A stretch of 64,000 bases of DNA from a virus: IMG/VR virus record IMGVR_UViG_3300034095_002511, positions 1 through 64,000 of that record; one strand, given 5' to 3'. Under the pieces are notes generated by a model, which was not told where the DNA came from, searched no databases, and saw only the letters and a program-made list of their open reading frames with translations. This document shows, one piece after another, positions 5,565 to 14,953 of this stretch (the first letter of the stretch is position 1; each line of letters begins with the position of its first letter). The translations under genes and the position numbers were made by a program.

Positions 5565-6065
5565 ATGGACTTTAAGTTTTTGCGATTAGTAGACACCAAA
5601 GATATTCCTCTGGCATGTGTAACTCCAATTGATAATCTTTTGGATTTATACAAACTTGGGATGCATATGGAGCAAATTTGCCTCGACAATAATGGGGTAG
5701 GATTATCAGCGGTTCAAGTTGGAATTCCATATGATTTTTTTGTCATCATTAATTTTAAAAAAAATGAATATTTTTTTCATTGTAGTTATGAAGGCTTTGG
5801 AGAAAAGCTCAAGTCCATTGAGGGATGTCTATCTTTAAAGGATTCTAATGGAAATCTTCAAAGATACGAAGTTGAAAGATTTGAAAAAATCAAGATAAAA
5901 GGCAAAAAGTTATTGGTTTCTGACAATGATCCGATGCTTGTAATTAGTGAATTTGAGGAAGATGTTGATAATTTCAATGCTATCATCTATCAACATGAAA
6001 TAGATCATCAAAATGGAATTTTAATTTCACAAATTGGCAAGCCAATTTATATTCATAGGAATTAA
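5565..6065 (+). CDS. def: Peptide deformylase
   Basis: All three deformylase motifs are present: GVGLSAVQ (44-51), EGCLS (86-90, metal Cys) and QHEIDH (143-148, two metal His and catalytic Glu). The enzyme removes the N-formyl group from nascent proteins at the ribosome. The length of 166 residues is normal for a core enzyme, longer than the minimal forms of some marine phages. AAAGGA precedes the ATG. With bS21 upstream and IF-3 further along, it fits a set that acts on translation. Active-site residues look intact, so activity is expected. Confidence 0.9.
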   Translation: MDFKFLRLVDTKDIPLACVTPIDNLLDLYKLGMHMEQICLDNNGVGLSAVQVGIPYDFFVIINFKKNEYFFHCSYEGFGEKLKSIEGCLSLKDSNGNLQRYEVERFEKIKIKGKKLLVSDNDPMLVISEFEEDVDNFNAIIYQHEIDHQNGILISQIGKPIYIHRN

Positions 6066-8652: not shown

Positions 8653-9090
8653 ATGGAAATTCAGAGATTAAAAAATGATGATTATCATATTGGAATTGCT
8701 CTTTTATCATCAGTTAAATCCAAACAAAGAAAAATAGCATTATTTTGCGACACAAATAATATAATTTATATTAGTTCTGAAAATAAGCCTAAAGGTATTA
8801 GTTCTGAGCAAGGTATATTTGTTTTAGAGCCAGAAATATATTTGTTTACTAATCTTAAAATTTTTGATGTTTCTGGTATTCTTTATTTGACTTACACTCC
8901 ATTATTTGAATCTTTGATAATTTTAGCTAATTCTTTGGTAAAAAAAATTGTTTATATTGAAACAGAAGTGATAAATAACGAAGTTGAGCAGTTGTGTTTA
9001 AGTGCAAATATAGATTTGCAAAAATACGATGGAAACCTTCATTGGATAAAGGATTACATATTTTTAATACAACAAGCTGAGATATTTTAA
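8653..9090 (+). CDS. Hypothetical protein, Rossmann-like secondary structure
   Basis: The ATG abuts the previous TAA. The 145-residue protein shows alternating hydrophobic strands (IALFCDTNNIIYI; FVLEPEIYLF; LVKKIVYIETEV) that suggest an alpha/beta fold, but no catalytic motif is visible. It could be a partner of the preceding protein. Function unknown. Confidence 0.5.
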   Translation: MEIQRLKNDDYHIGIALLSSVKSKQRKIALFCDTNNIIYISSENKPKGISSEQGIFVLEPEIYLFTNLKIFDVSGILYLTYTPLFESLIILANSLVKKIVYIETEVINNEVEQLCLSANIDLQKYDGNLHWIKDYIFLIQQAEIF

Positions 9091-9109
9091 GGGATTGGAT
9101 AAATATTAT

Positions 9110-9877
9110 ATGAGTTGCAATTCAAATAAATACACGGGTCAGAGTAGCGGATGCATTGACCAATATGGTTGTAAAAGCGGTGTTTGCCCCGACTTTACTC
9201 TAAGAAGAAATGATACAAAGCCTGATTTTAAAGTAAAGATCGAAGATTGTGATGGCCCTTTAGATCTTACTGATCTCGTGTTAGAGGCTTCGATGTGGTC
9301 AAATGGGAAATTTAAATTCGCAGTCAGCAGCACAGATACATATTTTTCTCTTGCTGATAATATCGGATTTAATCAGATTATGATTGGTGATGTTATAATA
9401 GTTGACAGACCAAGACAGACGGAGCATTTGTTGGTTACAGCCTTTGATGAATCTAATTATTACATTCAAGTACAAAGAGGTTATCATGGAACAATTGCTC
9501 AAAATTGGAAAAAAGGGCAACCTGTAAAAATTATAAAGTTTATGAATTCTGCTGCTCAAACAGAAATGGTATATCAAGATGTGATTGGCGTTGATGGAAT
9601 GACGACCAAAGATGTTTTACAAGAAAGTTATTTCGTATATCAATGGAAAAATGGAGATACATGTTTTCCAGGTTGTTACTTTTTAGAATTTAAACTCATG
9701 AAAATGGCTGTAACGCTAAACTTGGAATCATTATCGGTAATTCCAAGTTTTATAGATCCTAGTAATATTGATTATCATTGCAACATACCTCCCAATATTG
9801 AATGGATCAGAAGATTCCCAGTAGATACTGAAGGCTATATTTTAAAAATTTCAGATAGTCCAACATCAGAGATATGA
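9110..9877 (+). CDS. Probable virion/baseplate protein
   Basis: The frame is open from a TTG at 9095, but the ATG at 9110 is preferred because the upstream GGG sits too close to the TTG. The N-terminus is Cys-rich (five Cys in the first 35 residues). Then RRNDTKPDFKVKIEDCDGPL-DLTDLVLEASM follows the pattern RNDTxPxxxxxLxDxxGxxxDLTGAxVxxxM seen at the N-terminus of many phage baseplate/tail-fibre proteins. The rest is beta-rich. It is 256 residues long. Its place between unknown genes and a metabolic enzyme gives no further hint. Confidence 0.5.
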   Translation: MSCNSNKYTGQSSGCIDQYGCKSGVCPDFTLRRNDTKPDFKVKIEDCDGPLDLTDLVLEASMWSNGKFKFAVSSTDTYFSLADNIGFNQIMIGDVIIVDRPRQTEHLLVTAFDESNYYIQVQRGYHGTIAQNWKKGQPVKIIKFMNSAAQTEMVYQDVIGVDGMTTKDVLQESYFVYQWKNGDTCFPGCYFLEFKLMKMAVTLNLESLSVIPSFIDPSNIDYHCNIPPNIEWIRRFPVDTEGYILKISDSPTSEI

Positions 9878-9884
9878 GAAAATT

Positions 9885-11432
9885 ATGTCATTAGTTTCAA
9901 ATTTTTTGATTGAAAGGCTTGAAAACATTGGTGTTAAACACATTTTTGGAGTTGTTGGTGGTCACAATAATAGTTTTATAGAAAATATAAATAATAATTC
10001 TAAAATAAAATTTATTGCCAATAAAGATGAAAACAGTTCTGGATTTGCTGCTGACATTTACGCTAGGATTCAAGGCACTGGTTGCGTTTGTGCAAATTAC
10101 AATGCGGGAGCCTTAAAGCTTTGCAATTCAATTGCTGGTGCATACTCGGAGAAATCACCAGTCATTGTGATATCCATGTCTCCTCCTATAAAATCAAGAA
10201 ATGAAGATTTTTTATTACATCATGTCGTGAGAAGTTTTGATAACCAGCAAAAAATATTTAAAAACATTACTTGTTATTCGACTATTTTAAATGATGCTAC
10301 AAAAGCAGGTCTGGCTATCGATGAAGGGTTGGAGGCACTTCTGAAAAACAAGCAGCCTATTTACTTAGAGCTTCCTATAGATGTAGCCAATTCACCAATT
10401 AGATATGATGTCTATCGTGACGGAACTCCAAATAGTAAAACAAGCGACAAAGAAACATTACAGGATGCAATAAAAGAAACTTCAGATTGGATTGCCGAAA
10501 GTAAAAATCCTGTGATATTAATAGGTGTTCAAGTTATAAGATACGGACTAAGCAAAAAGATTGTTAGATTTGCAGAAAAACACAATATTCCATTTATGAC
10601 AACATTGCTTGGAAAAAGTTCTGTTGATGAGAACAATCATTTGTTTCGTGGGGTTTATTGTGGCTCTAAGACATCTGATGAAAATGTGAATGCAATTATA
10701 GATCAGTCTGACTGTCTGTTGGTTTTTGGAGAATGTTTATCGGATGTAACTCTTGGATTTCAATCTCCAAGATTTACTAAAAGACATGTTGTTTTTTGCT
10801 CTACTGAAGGTCTTTATATAAAGAATCATGTTTATAATAATGTGACATTTTCTGATTTTTGTAATTATTTATTTGAAATAAATTTTCCTTCTAAGGCAAT
10901 AATTGAAAATTATAAAAATAATGAATATTTTGAAGATTCTAAAAATAATGAATATATTTCTGAAAAATATTTTTTCAATAAAATCAATAATCTTATATGC
11001 AAAGATAATAATTTGGCAATAATAGCCGATGCTGGCGATTTTCTTACAAGTGCTTCTAAATTAAGGGTTTATGAAAATAGATTTTTTAGCCCTGCATTTC
11101 ATTATTCTACAGGATTTGCAATTCCTGGCTCTTTAGGTTTACAACTATCAAAGCCAGAACTTAGACCAATTGTATTGTTGAGTGAAAATTCATTTGATAT
11201 TTCCATGATCGAATTGCATACTTTGTTTCAAAATAAACTTAATCCTATAATTTTTATACTAAGTAATAACATGAATAAATTTTATAATATTGAAAAGTTT
11301 AAACAATTTTTTAATTTCGGTAATGGTTTTATTGTATCTAACAAAGATGAATTAGACAGCGTTATATCTACATCTTTGAAATCTAAAGAAATTAGTCTTA
11401 TAAATGTGACATTTACCAAGGAAAGCACTTAA
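9885..11432 (+). CDS. Thiamine-diphosphate enzyme, pyruvate-decarboxylase-like, altered cofactor motif
   Basis: The 515-residue protein shows the three-domain plan of ThDP decarboxylases: PYR domain with the activating Glu at 49 (DENSSGFAADIYAR) and a His pair at 112-113 (LLHHVV), a middle domain (about 190-330) and a PP domain. The His pair is typical of pyruvate/indolepyruvate decarboxylases. Two usual residues are changed: GDYN near residue 27 reads GGHN, and the Mg/ThDP motif GDG...NN reads SEN (433-435)...SNN (460-462). Glu could replace the Mg-binding Asp, but reduced or altered activity is possible. A decarboxylase or carboligase acting on a 2-oxo acid is the best guess; substrate unknown. 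It ends TAATG into IF-3. Confidence 0.75.
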   Translation: MSLVSNFLIERLENIGVKHIFGVVGGHNNSFIENINNNSKIKFIANKDENSSGFAADIYARIQGTGCVCANYNAGALKLCNSIAGAYSEKSPVIVISMSPPIKSRNEDFLLHHVVRSFDNQQKIFKNITCYSTILNDATKAGLAIDEGLEALLKNKQPIYLELPIDVANSPIRYDVYRDGTPNSKTSDKETLQDAIKETSDWIAESKNPVILIGVQVIRYGLSKKIVRFAEKHNIPFMTTLLGKSSVDENNHLFRGVYCGSKTSDENVNAIIDQSDCLLVFGECLSDVTLGFQSPRFTKRHVVFCSTEGLYIKNHVYNNVTFSDFCNYLFEINFPSKAIIENYKNNEYFEDSKNNEYISEKYFFNKINNLICKDNNLAIIADAGDFLTSASKLRVYENRFFSPAFHYSTGFAIPGSLGLQLSKPELRPIVLLSENSFDISMIELHTLFQNKLNPIIFILSNNMNKFYNIEKFKQFFNFGNGFIVSNKDELDSVISTSLKSKEISLINVTFTKEST

Positions 11433-11989
11433 TGCATCATCAGAACTATCGCAATTATGATAAAGATCCAAACAAACCTAGCGAACTTAGAATAAATTAT
11501 CAAATTAGAGTACTCACTGTAAGAGTCGTAAGAAACGAAGAGCAGCTTGGCATCATGTCAACAGATAATGCAAGAAGAATTGCAGAAGAATCTAATTTTG
11601 ATTTAGTAGAAGTTATCCCAAATGCTAATCCTCCACTTTGTAAAATTATGGATTATGCTAAGTACAAATATGAAAAAAAAGTAAAAGATAAAGAGAGTGC
11701 CAAAAAGAAAAGGGAATCTCAAATACAATTTAAAGAATTGAGATTTAGACCATCTATTGCAGAAAATGACCTTATGACAAAAGTTAATCATGCGAAAAGG
11801 TTTTTGCAAGAAGGTTGTAAGATTCACTGCATCGTTCAATTTAAAGGCGGAAGGGAATTAAATCATATTGACAATGGTTTTAATCTTGTTAAAAAATTGA
11901 TTGATAGTTTGTCTGAATATTCAACAGTGGAAGTTGCTCCTAAATTTGAAGGTAATAAAATATTTTGTTGTTTGGCTTCTAAAGTTTGA
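11432..11989 (+). CDS. infC: Translation initiation factor IF-3
   Basis: The 185-residue protein aligns in order with bacterial IF-3: the N-domain RINYQIRVLTVRVV and LGIMSTDNARRIAEES, then PPLCKIMDYAKYKYE, a Lys-rich linker (KKVKDKESAKKKRE) and the C-domain ELRFRPSIAENDLMTKVNHA with RFLQEGCKIHCIVQFKGGREL. IF-3 binds the 30S platform, checks start-codon and initiator pairing and keeps subunits apart. The ATG overlaps the previous stop (TAATG). Length and domain set are complete, so it should be functional. IF-3 is rare in viruses. It may bias initiation toward phage mRNAs together with bS21. Confidence 0.92.
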   Translation: MHHQNYRNYDKDPNKPSELRINYQIRVLTVRVVRNEEQLGIMSTDNARRIAEESNFDLVEVIPNANPPLCKIMDYAKYKYEKKVKDKESAKKKRESQIQFKELRFRPSIAENDLMTKVNHAKRFLQEGCKIHCIVQFKGGRELNHIDNGFNLVKKLIDSLSEYSTVEVAPKFEGNKIFCCLASKV

Positions 11990-11996
11990 GAAAAAC

Positions 11997-13205
11997 ATGA
12001 ATCCTATTAAAGACACAAATATAATTAGTTTTTTTGAAGAATTCTATAAAAGACTTAATTCTAATTCTAGTTTTTATAAAAAAAAAGATAATTTATTCAT
12101 TTCCAAATTACTTAATTCGGATCACGAAATATTGCGTACTGCGTTTGGTGACATCGGAGATAAAATTGTCGCTTTTTTAAAAAGTGTTGACATAAGCCAT
12201 CCAAATATTGAAGATTGTTATGATGGGATTTTTCAAGATAATGGTGAATTCAACCAAGTATTCGATGAATTATGCTCTTATTATAATTTTGGAAAAGCGA
12301 ATAAATTCACCAAGCTGAGTGAACTTCTTCAAAGTTTTATGAGTAAATATGTTTTAGATAATTTTAAAATATTGTCTAAAATCGATGTTCCAGAAAACAA
12401 CAGATGCAATTTGCGTTTTTTAAATGACAATGAAAAAAAAGAAAAAATCAGATGTCAAAAAAAGATGCAAATAATTGATCTTAATAGTGCTTATAAAAAA
12501 GGAATTTATAATTTTAATTCTCATCCAAATAATTTTTATAATTTTTTAAGATTTGATAAATCTTTAGAAAATGAAGTTAAAAATATGGAACGCAAAGCCA
12601 AAAGATATGAGGATTTGGGTTGTTCTTTTTTGGCAAACGAAATAACAAGCAACTTGCAATCTTATCATGAGTATATACGACAATCTTATTTTGGGTTCAA
12701 TAGAATTACCATGTCCGCTGCCAGTTTGATTCTGTCGAGAAATTTTAACTATACGAGTTCAATCACACCAACTATTTTTTCAGATCAATCAGATATATTT
12801 AAAATATTTGCCACCCAAGGACTTTTTGGAAAATACTTTTTTGATGAAAATGAAGAAATAAATGGTTATGAATATGAGCCTAAAATATACCCATTGAATT
12901 ATTTCAATGATATTATGACCGATAAAGTAAAAGATGTTATAAGCAAATTGGAAAAATTTCCAGAGGCAGACAACAAATCGATATTTGATTTTTATGGTTT
13001 AATAGTACCTTCTTTTGATTTTCCTGTTTTGTCTAAAGATAAAAATTATTCATTTATAGACTGCAATGGGAAATTGAGAGTTTATCAAGATTGTTTGGAA
13101 TCAAAATATGAATTTGATAAAAATATGATTCAAAATAAATATTTTACTCCAATTATAGTTGCTGAGAAAGATCACAAATGTTACTTTATAACATACTGGA
13201 TTTAA
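11997..13205 (+). CDS. Hypothetical protein
   Basis: The track of open codons extends back into infC, but the ATG at 11997, eight bases after the infC stop, is the natural start and gives 402 residues. The protein is rich in Asn, Phe and Lys, looks mainly helical, and lacks recognisable motifs, signal peptide or membrane segment. Size and position suggest a stable phage protein; function unknown. Confidence 0.6.
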   Translation: MNPIKDTNIISFFEEFYKRLNSNSSFYKKKDNLFISKLLNSDHEILRTAFGDIGDKIVAFLKSVDISHPNIEDCYDGIFQDNGEFNQVFDELCSYYNFGKANKFTKLSELLQSFMSKYVLDNFKILSKIDVPENNRCNLRFLNDNEKKEKIRCQKKMQIIDLNSAYKKGIYNFNSHPNNFYNFLRFDKSLENEVKNMERKAKRYEDLGCSFLANEITSNLQSYHEYIRQSYFGFNRITMSAASLILSRNFNYTSSITPTIFSDQSDIFKIFATQGLFGKYFFDENEEINGYEYEPKIYPLNYFNDIMTDKVKDVISKLEKFPEADNKSIFDFYGLIVPSFDFPVLSKDKNYSFIDCNGKLRVYQDCLESKYEFDKNMIQNKYFTPIIVAEKDHKCYFITYWI

Positions 13206-13217
13206 CAAGAGGTGCCA

Positions 13218-13544
13218 ATGATTTCTAAAAAAATTACAATTGAACAACTATTGAGCTTTGCTAAATCAATTTATTATGATGCTTGTTTGGGCCATTTAGA
13301 TTTAATGGATGGTTATTGCGAAAAGGAAGCTGAAAAAATATTTGAAAAATTATCAGATGTGCCTTTGGTTGTATCGGATGATAAAAAAAATATAGATTTT
13401 AAAATCTATGATTCAGAAATGACAAATAGGCAAATTAATCCACAATTATTTGTTTCTAATCAATTTGACCATAACAATTTTTCTACTAATGAAATTTATG
13501 CAAAGAATATTACTATAACAACTAATACAAATGATATTTTTTAG
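13218..13544 (+). CDS. Hypothetical protein
   Basis: ATG 13218 is preferred over GTG 13212 because AGAGG lies about seven bases upstream. The 108-residue product has an N-terminal helical region with a CLGHLDLMDGYCEKEAEKIF segment and a Thr/Asn-rich end. No family recognised. It lies directly before the co-chaperonin. Confidence 0.5.
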   Translation: MISKKITIEQLLSFAKSIYYDACLGHLDLMDGYCEKEAEKIFEKLSDVPLVVSDDKKNIDFKIYDSEMTNRQINPQLFVSNQFDHNNFSTNEIYAKNITITTNTNDIF

Positions 13545-13553
13545 GAGTTTCAA

Positions 13554-13892
13554 ATGTCTAAGAAAATTGTCGGTGCAGATGGCGAGTGCCTTTCTTCGGT
13601 TCGTACTGTTAAAGGTGTCACTCCTTGTGGTAGTCAAGTTTTAGTTGAGATTTTGACACCACAAGAGCTTATGAACACCAATATCACTATTTCTGAAAAA
13701 ACAGATCTTAAGGTGCCTTTACAGGGCTACATAAGGGCTGTTGGCCCAACTTTTAGTTCAGAATGGGGTTATAAGGTTGGTGATCGAGTTTTAATTAGCG
13801 GAAGCGGTGTAATTTCTCCAAATTACAATTCTATTCATCGAGACTCTTTCTTGATGGAACCTAATGCTATTAAGGCTGTTATTGTCGAATAG
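13554..13892 (+). CDS. GroES-like co-chaperonin
   Basis: The 112-residue protein fits the GroES barrel: VTPCGSQVLVEIL (like KPLGDRVVVK), a mobile-loop region with NTNITI, PLQGYIRAVGP (like GxVxAVGxG), GYKVGDRVLIS (VKxGDxVLF) and the closing NAIKAVIVE (DILAVIE). It would cap a GroEL ring, presumably the host's, because no large subunit is coded here; T4 gp31 and similar phage proteins do this to fold capsid protein. A 25-residue N-terminal extension is present. GGAG precedes the ATG. Confidence 0.8.
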   Translation: MSKKIVGADGECLSSVRTVKGVTPCGSQVLVEILTPQELMNTNITISEKTDLKVPLQGYIRAVGPTFSSEWGYKVGDRVLISGSGVISPNYNSIHRDSFLMEPNAIKAVIVE

Positions 13893-13897
13893 AAAAA

Positions 13898-14953
13898 ATG
13901 AATAAAGATCCATATTTAGTATTAGAAATTTCTAGAACTGCCTCTGCTGAAGAAATTCAAAATGCCTACAGGAAAAAAGCTAAACAGTTTCATCCTGATA
14001 GGAATATTGGAGATCCTACAGCAGAGGAGAAATTTAGAGAAGTTCAAGAATCTTATGATATTTTAAATAATTCAAAAAAGAAAAACCAATTTGATCAATT
14101 TGGCTTTGGTGTTAATCCTAATGAATGGTCTTCTGGTTTCATGCATACTATGCACGACATCTTTGGAAAATCTATTCACAAAGGAAAAAATATACAAGTC
14201 AAAGTTGAAATTACTTTAGAAGAAGCTGCTACAGGTTGTTCTAAACAAGTAAAAGTAAAAAAAAGCAAAATATGTGCATCCTGCAATGGAAATGGATCTA
14301 AAAAGTTTGAAAGCTGCAAGCATTGTAATGGAACAGGCATTCATAATGTTTTGTTGCAAGGAAATGCAAATATTAATTTTCAAACCGCATGCCAAGCATG
14401 TAATGGTTCTGGAAAGATAATTATAGAAAATTGCAATGACTGTAATGGTGCTGGATATCAAGGAATGCAAAGTGAAGAAGTGGTAATTGATTTGCCCATT
14501 CCAGCAGGGGTATCAAGTGGTCAAATACGCATGCCAGAACAAGGTGATCCTTGTAGGCACAATAATGGAATTAATGGCGATTTGATTATATTCATTCAAG
14601 TATTACAGCATGAATTTTTCCAACGACACGATAATCACATTGTGATAGATGTTCCTTGTACTTTTTACCAACTTGTAAATGGATTTGAATTAGAAATTTC
14701 AAATATTTACAAACAAAAAGTAAAAGTAAAGATACCAAAAAACACTATGCCAAATTCACAAATTAGAATTCAAAGACAGGGCTTGCCTGGTGGAATAGAT
14801 GGTATTGGTGACATGTTTGCAATTCCAAAGTTAGATATGCCTAAAAATATGCCACAGGAATATCTTGATTTGCTTGAAAAAATAAATGAAATTGAGAAAA
14901 AAAATCCAAGTGTAAGAAAAAAAGAATGGGATAGGAAAGTTAGTAAACTATAA
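13898..14953 (+). CDS. dnaJ: DnaJ (Hsp40) chaperone
   Basis: The 351-residue protein has the full type I Hsp40 order: J-domain with HPD (32-34), a short linker, the zinc domain with four CxxCxGxG repeats (CASCNGNG, CKHCNGTG, CQACNGSG, CNDCNGAG), and the two C-terminal substrate-binding domains with DVPCTFYQLVNGFELEI. It stimulates DnaK ATPase and holds unfolded clients. The Gly/Phe linker is short. No dnaK is coded here, so it would work with host DnaK. It lies directly after the GroES-like gene, forming a folding pair. Confidence 0.92.
   Translation: MNKDPYLVLEISRTASAEEIQNAYRKKAKQFHPDRNIGDPTAEEKFREVQESYDILNNSKKKNQFDQFGFGVNPNEWSSGFMHTMHDIFGKSIHKGKNIQVKVEITLEEAATGCSKQVKVKKSKICASCNGNGSKKFESCKHCNGTGIHNVLLQGNANINFQTACQACNGSGKIIIENCNDCNGAGYQGMQSEEVVIDLPIPAGVSSGQIRMPEQGDPCRHNNGINGDLIIFIQVLQHEFFQRHDNHIVIDVPCTFYQLVNGFELEISNIYKQKVKVKIPKNTMPNSQIRIQRQGLPGGIDGIGDMFAIPKLDMPKNMPQEYLDLLEKINEIEKKNPSVRKKEWDRKVSKL

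Follow-up and report, generated by a model that had tools for sequence, protein, structure and literature searches.

A decarboxylase-like protein of huge phages is most likely a pseudoenzyme retained for a putative noncatalytic role

The protein encoded at positions 9885 to 11432 of the window (the whole 64,000-nucleotide stretch of viral DNA analyzed here, positions 1 to 64,000 of IMG/VR record IMGVR_UViG_3300034095_002511) is most likely a pseudoenzyme that derives from a phage 2-oxoacid decarboxylase and is retained for a putative noncatalytic, probably binding role, a reading to which we assign a probability of about 0.7. Huge phages seem to have turned this enzyme into a noncatalytic protein more than once. 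Neither the fold nor the pseudoenzyme concept is new; the novelty lies in the repeated conversion within one phage gene family. All genes and codons given below by window coordinates lie on the + strand.

RESULTS

The gene and its predicted fold

The gene runs from ATG to TAA and encodes 515 amino acids (the window protein, or W; L-numbers such as L002 and L003 denote homologues from viral contigs), and the reverse strand at 9885 to 11432 holds no comparable open frame. The TPP_enzyme N, M, and C domains of Pfam occur in order, all above cutoff (6e-27, 4e-21, and 5e-9, respectively), and 146 PDB sequences match, KivD/KdcA among them, with KivD the best (6e-62). A preliminary description, made from the sequence alone, had called this a pyruvate decarboxylase-like protein, and the Pfam domains and PDB matches confirm that it belongs to the 2-oxoacid decarboxylase (PDC/KivD) family. 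The structure prediction proposed at that time likewise returned a PDC fold: the AlphaFold model, whose input alignment left out two rows from annotated records, has a pLDDT of 88 and TM scores of 0.85 to 0.89 to KivD and phenylpyruvate decarboxylase. The sole phage family matching the protein is PHROG 11199 (E value of 1.5e-44 over residues 5 to 464), which carries no functional annotation.

The source record of the window (92,977 bases) overlaps a second record of 165,207 bases, and the 21.4 kb that were compared between them are 100% identical, the decarboxylase-like gene included. Because the same sequence appears in this second assembly, a sequencing error is unlikely to account for its peculiarities, and we ruled out an error or frameshift on this basis. 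Bacterial contamination was also ruled out, as phage genes surround the gene in an order that is conserved across many contigs.

Active-site residues

Compared with KivD/KdcA, phenylpyruvate, and indolepyruvate decarboxylases (TIGR03394; PF02776, PF00205, and PF02775), the window protein shares the fold, the three domains, the activating Glu, and the His-His pair but lacks the catalytic Asp, the GDG motif, and the GYxTE segment; TIGR03394 (indolepyruvate/phenylpyruvate decarboxylase) is its best NCBIfam match but scores 251 bits against a cutoff of 554. Alignment with its relatives shows that the cofactor-activating Glu49 (positions 10029 to 10031; Glu51 in yeast PDC) and His112-His113 (positions 10218 to 10223) are kept, as initially described, and that both of the replacements reported at that time are genuine. 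GGHN replaces GDYx at codons 25 to 28 (positions 9957 to 9968), such that Asp26 in the PGDY of intact relatives, the catalytic Asp (Asp28 in yeast PDC), is Gly26 here. At codons 433 to 436 (positions 11181 to 11192), SENS replaces GDGA, turning GDGAF into SENSF, with Ser433-Glu434-Asn435 standing where the GDG of the ThDP/Mg loop was.

The preliminary description erred, however, in counting GDYN as part of the ThDP/Mg motif. The Asp of GDYN serves in catalysis (Asp28, yeast numbering; PMC4701669) and is no metal ligand; the metal motif of ThDP enzymes is GDG-X24-27-N (PMC3534367, PMC4428508), so catalysis and cofactor binding have been hit separately. The latter motif is broken at both ends, in that the GDG is gone and only the second Asn (Asn461) of the NN pair is kept, the first having become Ser. 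The first GDG position is occupied by Gly in 98% of all ThDP decarboxylases, and no other single residue exceeds 1% there (PMC3534367).

A late Glu had also been reported as kept, but the catalytic Glu that follows NN (Glu477 in yeast PDC) is not found. After the strand at residues 455 to 460, both the best alignment and the model lack, at residues 460 to 468 (positions 11262 to 11289), the NNxGYxTE helix segment that intact relatives have, and it is here that intact L003 carries its catalytic Glu within GYATE. In this alignment, NIEKF of the window protein pairs without gaps with NYHKV of L003, which would place Glu470 opposite His479 of L003; the predicted secondary structures agree, with two helices between the strands in L003 (residues 462 to 467 and 478 to 483) and one in the window protein (residues 469 to 476). 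Glu470 is probably the residue that was taken for the late Glu.

Besides the GDG glycines, the catalytic Asp, and the post-NN segment (Gly/Tyr/Glu), the ThDP-side residues Thr71, Val74, and Gly98 are changed, and the patterns of change at ThDP-site residues differ between related lineages. These residue losses support the earlier suggestion of a protein that has ceased to bind its cofactor in the usual manner. Weak ThDP/Mg binding, as in a sensor, is possible, since Glu49, the His-His pair, and the Mg ligand Asn461 remain and since 7% of the superfamily has Glu in place of the GDG Asp (PMC3534367).

The extent of loss was gauged on 52 alignment columns that are invariant in 43 intact homologues, both phage and cellular. 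The window protein departs from 17 of the 52, L002 from 16, and L052 from 12; intact homologues, when each is left out in turn, show at most two changes. The losses in the window protein cluster at the ThDP site (D26, T71, V74, G98, Y403, G430 to M436, N457, G460, Y461, and E464 in L003 numbering). Among columns conserved at the 95% level, its losses come to 16 of 33 for the PP domain, 8 of 37 for the PYR domain, and 2 of 11 for the middle domain.

Homologues in huge phages and in cells

Counting the window protein, 21 distinct homologues occupy the same place in huge-phage contigs, namely, between a tail-like gene and the gene for translation initiation factor IF3. All catalytic and ThDP motifs are kept in 17 of them (L003, L005, L014 to L020, L022, L023, L025, L027 to L030, and L179); the motifs have decayed in the remaining four (the window protein, L002, L052, and L165). 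The first match was LR756511.1, a 595-kb uncultured phage (43% identity by tblastn), and contigs with homologues extend up to that size. Further homologues came from scans of IMG/VR, and a scan for the linker motif described below, which is independent of the active site, added two types. A genome scan by alignment yielded 572 stretches, and one with a single protein as the query yielded no match.

The window protein is 42 to 55% identical to the intact phage decarboxylases (e.g., L003, L015, and LR756511.1), which have the same gene order and linker but, unlike it, keep all motifs and are often accompanied by an aldehyde dehydrogenase. Cellular homologues (42 to 48% identical to L015) derive mainly from Planctomycetes, Verrucomicrobia, Nitrospira, and Poribacteria. 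No second decarboxylase copy was found in 25 phage records. The initial remark that such an enzyme is very unusual in a virus applies to isolated phages, among which it is rare, but not to this one group of huge phages, in which the gene is conserved and its intact versions are stable. In the literature that we searched, which was incomplete, we found no report of a decarboxylase of this kind in huge phages or of pseudoenzymes in jumbo phages. A second set of viral contigs (L031 to L050) encodes a distant (~32%) 2-oxoacid decarboxylase with intact motifs (VGDGAFQM and NNRGYSTE) and has no aldehyde dehydrogenase within the flanks examined.

The phage proteins are marked by a linker, YDVYxxGTP, between the PYR and middle domains (residues 174 to 182; positions 10404 to 10430). 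In 18 phage sequences, decayed forms among them, its Y174, G180, and P182 do not vary; in bacterial homologues, which are two residues shorter at this point, they are rare. The linker also occurs in L165, which lends no independent support because L165 was found through it. Its retention in live and dead forms alike is what would be expected of a putative binding site.

Neighboring genes and the aldehyde dehydrogenase

Upstream of the decarboxylase-like gene lies a conserved tail-like gene (positions 9095 to 9877) with a weak match to phage tail proteins (E value of 0.0024). Downstream, the ATG of the IF3 gene (positions 11432 to 11989) shares one base with the decarboxylase stop codon (taatg), an overlap also present in L002. 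There follows a conserved, fast-evolving gene without a Pfam or NCBIfam match (positions 11997 to 13205), which comes after IF3 in nearly all of these phages. The widely shared order is tail-like gene, decarboxylase, IF3, the gene like that at 11997 to 13205, often an aldehyde dehydrogenase, GroES, and DnaJ. Translation and folding genes common to the group surround the decarboxylase-like gene in the window: peptide deformylase (PDF; 5565 to 6065), IF3, a GroES-like gene (13554 to 13892), and a DnaJ-like gene (13898 to 14953).

In L003, the aldehyde dehydrogenase gene lies between the homologues of window positions 11997 to 13205 and 13212 to 13544; the site at which L003 and L052 carry it amounts to only 6 bases in the window (positions 13206 to 13211), where no remnant was found. 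The 165-kb record of this phage yielded no aldehyde dehydrogenase either, but the genome, known from the overlapping 93- and 165-kb records, is incomplete, and its remainder may hold such a gene or a second, intact decarboxylase. Across the group, counted in records that are themselves fragments, the aldehyde dehydrogenase is present in 12 of 20, plus 1 of 5 further records. In the nine that were aligned, the family's Cys and Glu motifs are retained. No aldehyde dehydrogenase stands beside any of 80 cellular decarboxylase homologues.

We considered and rejected the simple rule that the decarboxylase decayed because the aldehyde dehydrogenase was lost: L052 and L053 pair a motif-intact aldehyde dehydrogenase with a dead decarboxylase, and some intact decarboxylases lack an aldehyde dehydrogenase in their (incomplete) records. 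Contigs L017, L018, and L023 have aldehyde dehydrogenase matches with one or two reported stop codons in the match or frame.

Selection on the decarboxylase-like protein

Strong purifying selection acts on the window protein. Relative to L002, dN is 0.26 to 0.27 and dS is about 1.9, for a dN/dS of about 0.14, which is rough because dS is near saturation. Differences at the three codon positions amount to 0.27, 0.17, and 0.53, and no stop occurs in more than 500 codons. Values of dN are higher (0.35 to 0.49) in the IF3, PDF, and DnaJ genes and in the gene at 11997 to 13205. Identity between the two proteins is 72% over the PYR and middle domains and 49% over the PP domain, and for IF3, DnaJ, and PDF of the two phages it is 54 to 56%. 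On the W/L002 branch, about 0.84 to 1.08 changes per column accumulated in the PP domain versus 0.35 in the rest. The low dN and the high PYR and middle-domain identity indicate that the protein has been preserved, above all outside the portion to which the GDG loop belongs. The combination that characterizes a pseudoenzyme, i.e., active-site residues lost with fold and sequence under selection, is found in the window protein.

Number of loss events

The window protein and L002 share one loss event. For L052, the evidence is divided: a tree of six neighbor genes groups it with intact L003 (support of 100/99), whereas the whole-gene tree of the decarboxylase groups it weakly with W/L002 (82/74). 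The N-terminal part agrees weakly with an L052-L003 grouping (84/54; AU P value of 0.13 for the alternative). The position of L052 beside an intact relative in the neighbor-gene tree implies either a second loss event or gene exchange and disfavors a single decay in one ancestor. Within the supported six-member clade (the window protein, L002, L052, L003, L014, and L015; 100/99), two loss events are favored, with gene exchange possible.

L165 lies outside this clade, so its loss is separate, and its pattern differs (D26R, deletion of the His-His segment, and Glu464Lys, yet GDGAF remains). The His-His pair is lost in both L052 and L165. In total, there have been at least two loss events and probably three. 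The replacements in decayed forms resemble one another (SENSF, DENSF, and SEDSF), a likeness into which we read no function because each step is likely a single-base change.

DISCUSSION

The ancestral gene would have encoded an intact 2-oxoacid decarboxylase of the KivD/IPDC/PDC type in huge phages, situated between the tail-like gene and IF3. Judging from the two protein families, the decarboxylase and the aldehyde dehydrogenase would together have converted a 2-oxo acid to an aldehyde and then to an acid, yielding NAD(P)H. In the lineage of the window phage, the aldehyde dehydrogenase has disappeared from its place. Gone from the decarboxylase are the catalytic Asp, the GDG diphosphate/Mg loop, and the stretch that bears the catalytic Glu, while purifying selection has kept its predicted fold, its PYR and middle domains, and the phage-specific linker. 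The resulting protein would be folded, probably oligomeric, and devoid of decarboxylase activity, and it is probably kept as a binder of a phage or host protein or possibly of a ligand.

Of the other explanations, that of a relict gene in decay, belonging to an abandoned pathway and open in frame only because little time has passed or because its translation is coupled to that of IF3, would fit the disappearance of the aldehyde dehydrogenase from this lineage, the long PP-domain branches, and the one-base IF3 overlap in W and L002. It is nonetheless improbable: silent sites between these two are saturated, yet their PYR and middle-domain residues remain 72% identical, their dN does not reach the values for IF3, DnaJ, and PDF, and coupling requires an open frame but not conserved amino acids. 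An enzyme of changed chemistry or specificity, altered specificity having been offered in the preliminary description, might hold ThDP/Mg through Glu434 and Asn461 or use another cofactor, and both the Glu that 7% of superfamily members have in place of the GDG Asp (PMC3534367) and the retention of Glu49, the His-His pair, and the second Asn of NN in W and L002 could be cited in its favor. This we regard as very unlikely, given that Gly443 (yeast numbering) and the catalytic Asp and Glu are lost and Thr71, Val74, and Gly98 are changed, and that the catalytic Asp has been replaced differently in each of the four decayed relatives, with Gly, Gln, Pro, or Arg in its place. Such variety has the look of relaxed constraint, not of a new active site.

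The active sites of the PDC family sit between two subunits, which leaves room for a half-active subunit, in which the PYR side of the window protein would join the PP side contributed by an intact subunit of host or phage origin and form or block a mixed site. Such an arrangement would suit the retention of the PYR-side Glu49 and His-His pair in W and L002 alongside loss of the PP side. Against it, the PYR-side Asp26, Thr71, Val74, and Gly98 are lost as well, L052 and L165 lack the His-His pair, and the 25 phage records lack a second copy; intact cellular homologues come from specific phyla. We regard this explanation, too, as very unlikely.

A noncatalytic protein of decarboxylase ancestry has a precedent in Thi3 of Saccharomyces cerevisiae, a PDC-like protein. 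Thi3 acts with Pdc2 and Thi2 as a thiamine sensor in a regulatory role (PMC4299793). It exemplifies a decarboxylase-like regulator, but in the window protein the GDG loop is gone, and no result points to regulation in its case. More tentatively, and with lower odds than the pseudoenzyme reading itself, several independent conversions might have occurred because the decarboxylase always had a second job. The linker and N-terminal two thirds would then bind a putative phage partner, perhaps a virion- or translation-related complex, which would make catalysis expendable and the protein not, and a deaminase-like gene nearby could be a second case.

On the strength of homology, metabolic genes of phages are usually taken to signify active metabolism. 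In the present case, a strong family match accompanies an enzyme that is most likely dead in several lineages even as selection preserves the protein, which calls for caution in assigning auxiliary metabolic functions from domain hits alone. The group also offers a natural series (live with the aldehyde dehydrogenase, live without it, dead with it, and dead without it) in which further roles of phage enzymes could be sought.

The deaminase-like gene lies two genes upstream of the decarboxylase-like gene (positions 8653 to 9090) and encodes a dCMP deaminase-like protein that lacks the zinc motifs HAE and PCxxC. Its profile matches that of intact huge-phage deaminases encoded at the same place (probability of 98.8; E value of 1e-15). 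About eleven relatives retain these motifs intact, whereas the window phage, L002, L052, L014, L023, and L028 have lost them; no deaminase gene was found in L003. As L165 combines a live-looking deaminase with a dead decarboxylase, the two losses are independent. The C-terminal GNLNWxRD of the deaminase is kept in most live forms and in dead ones.
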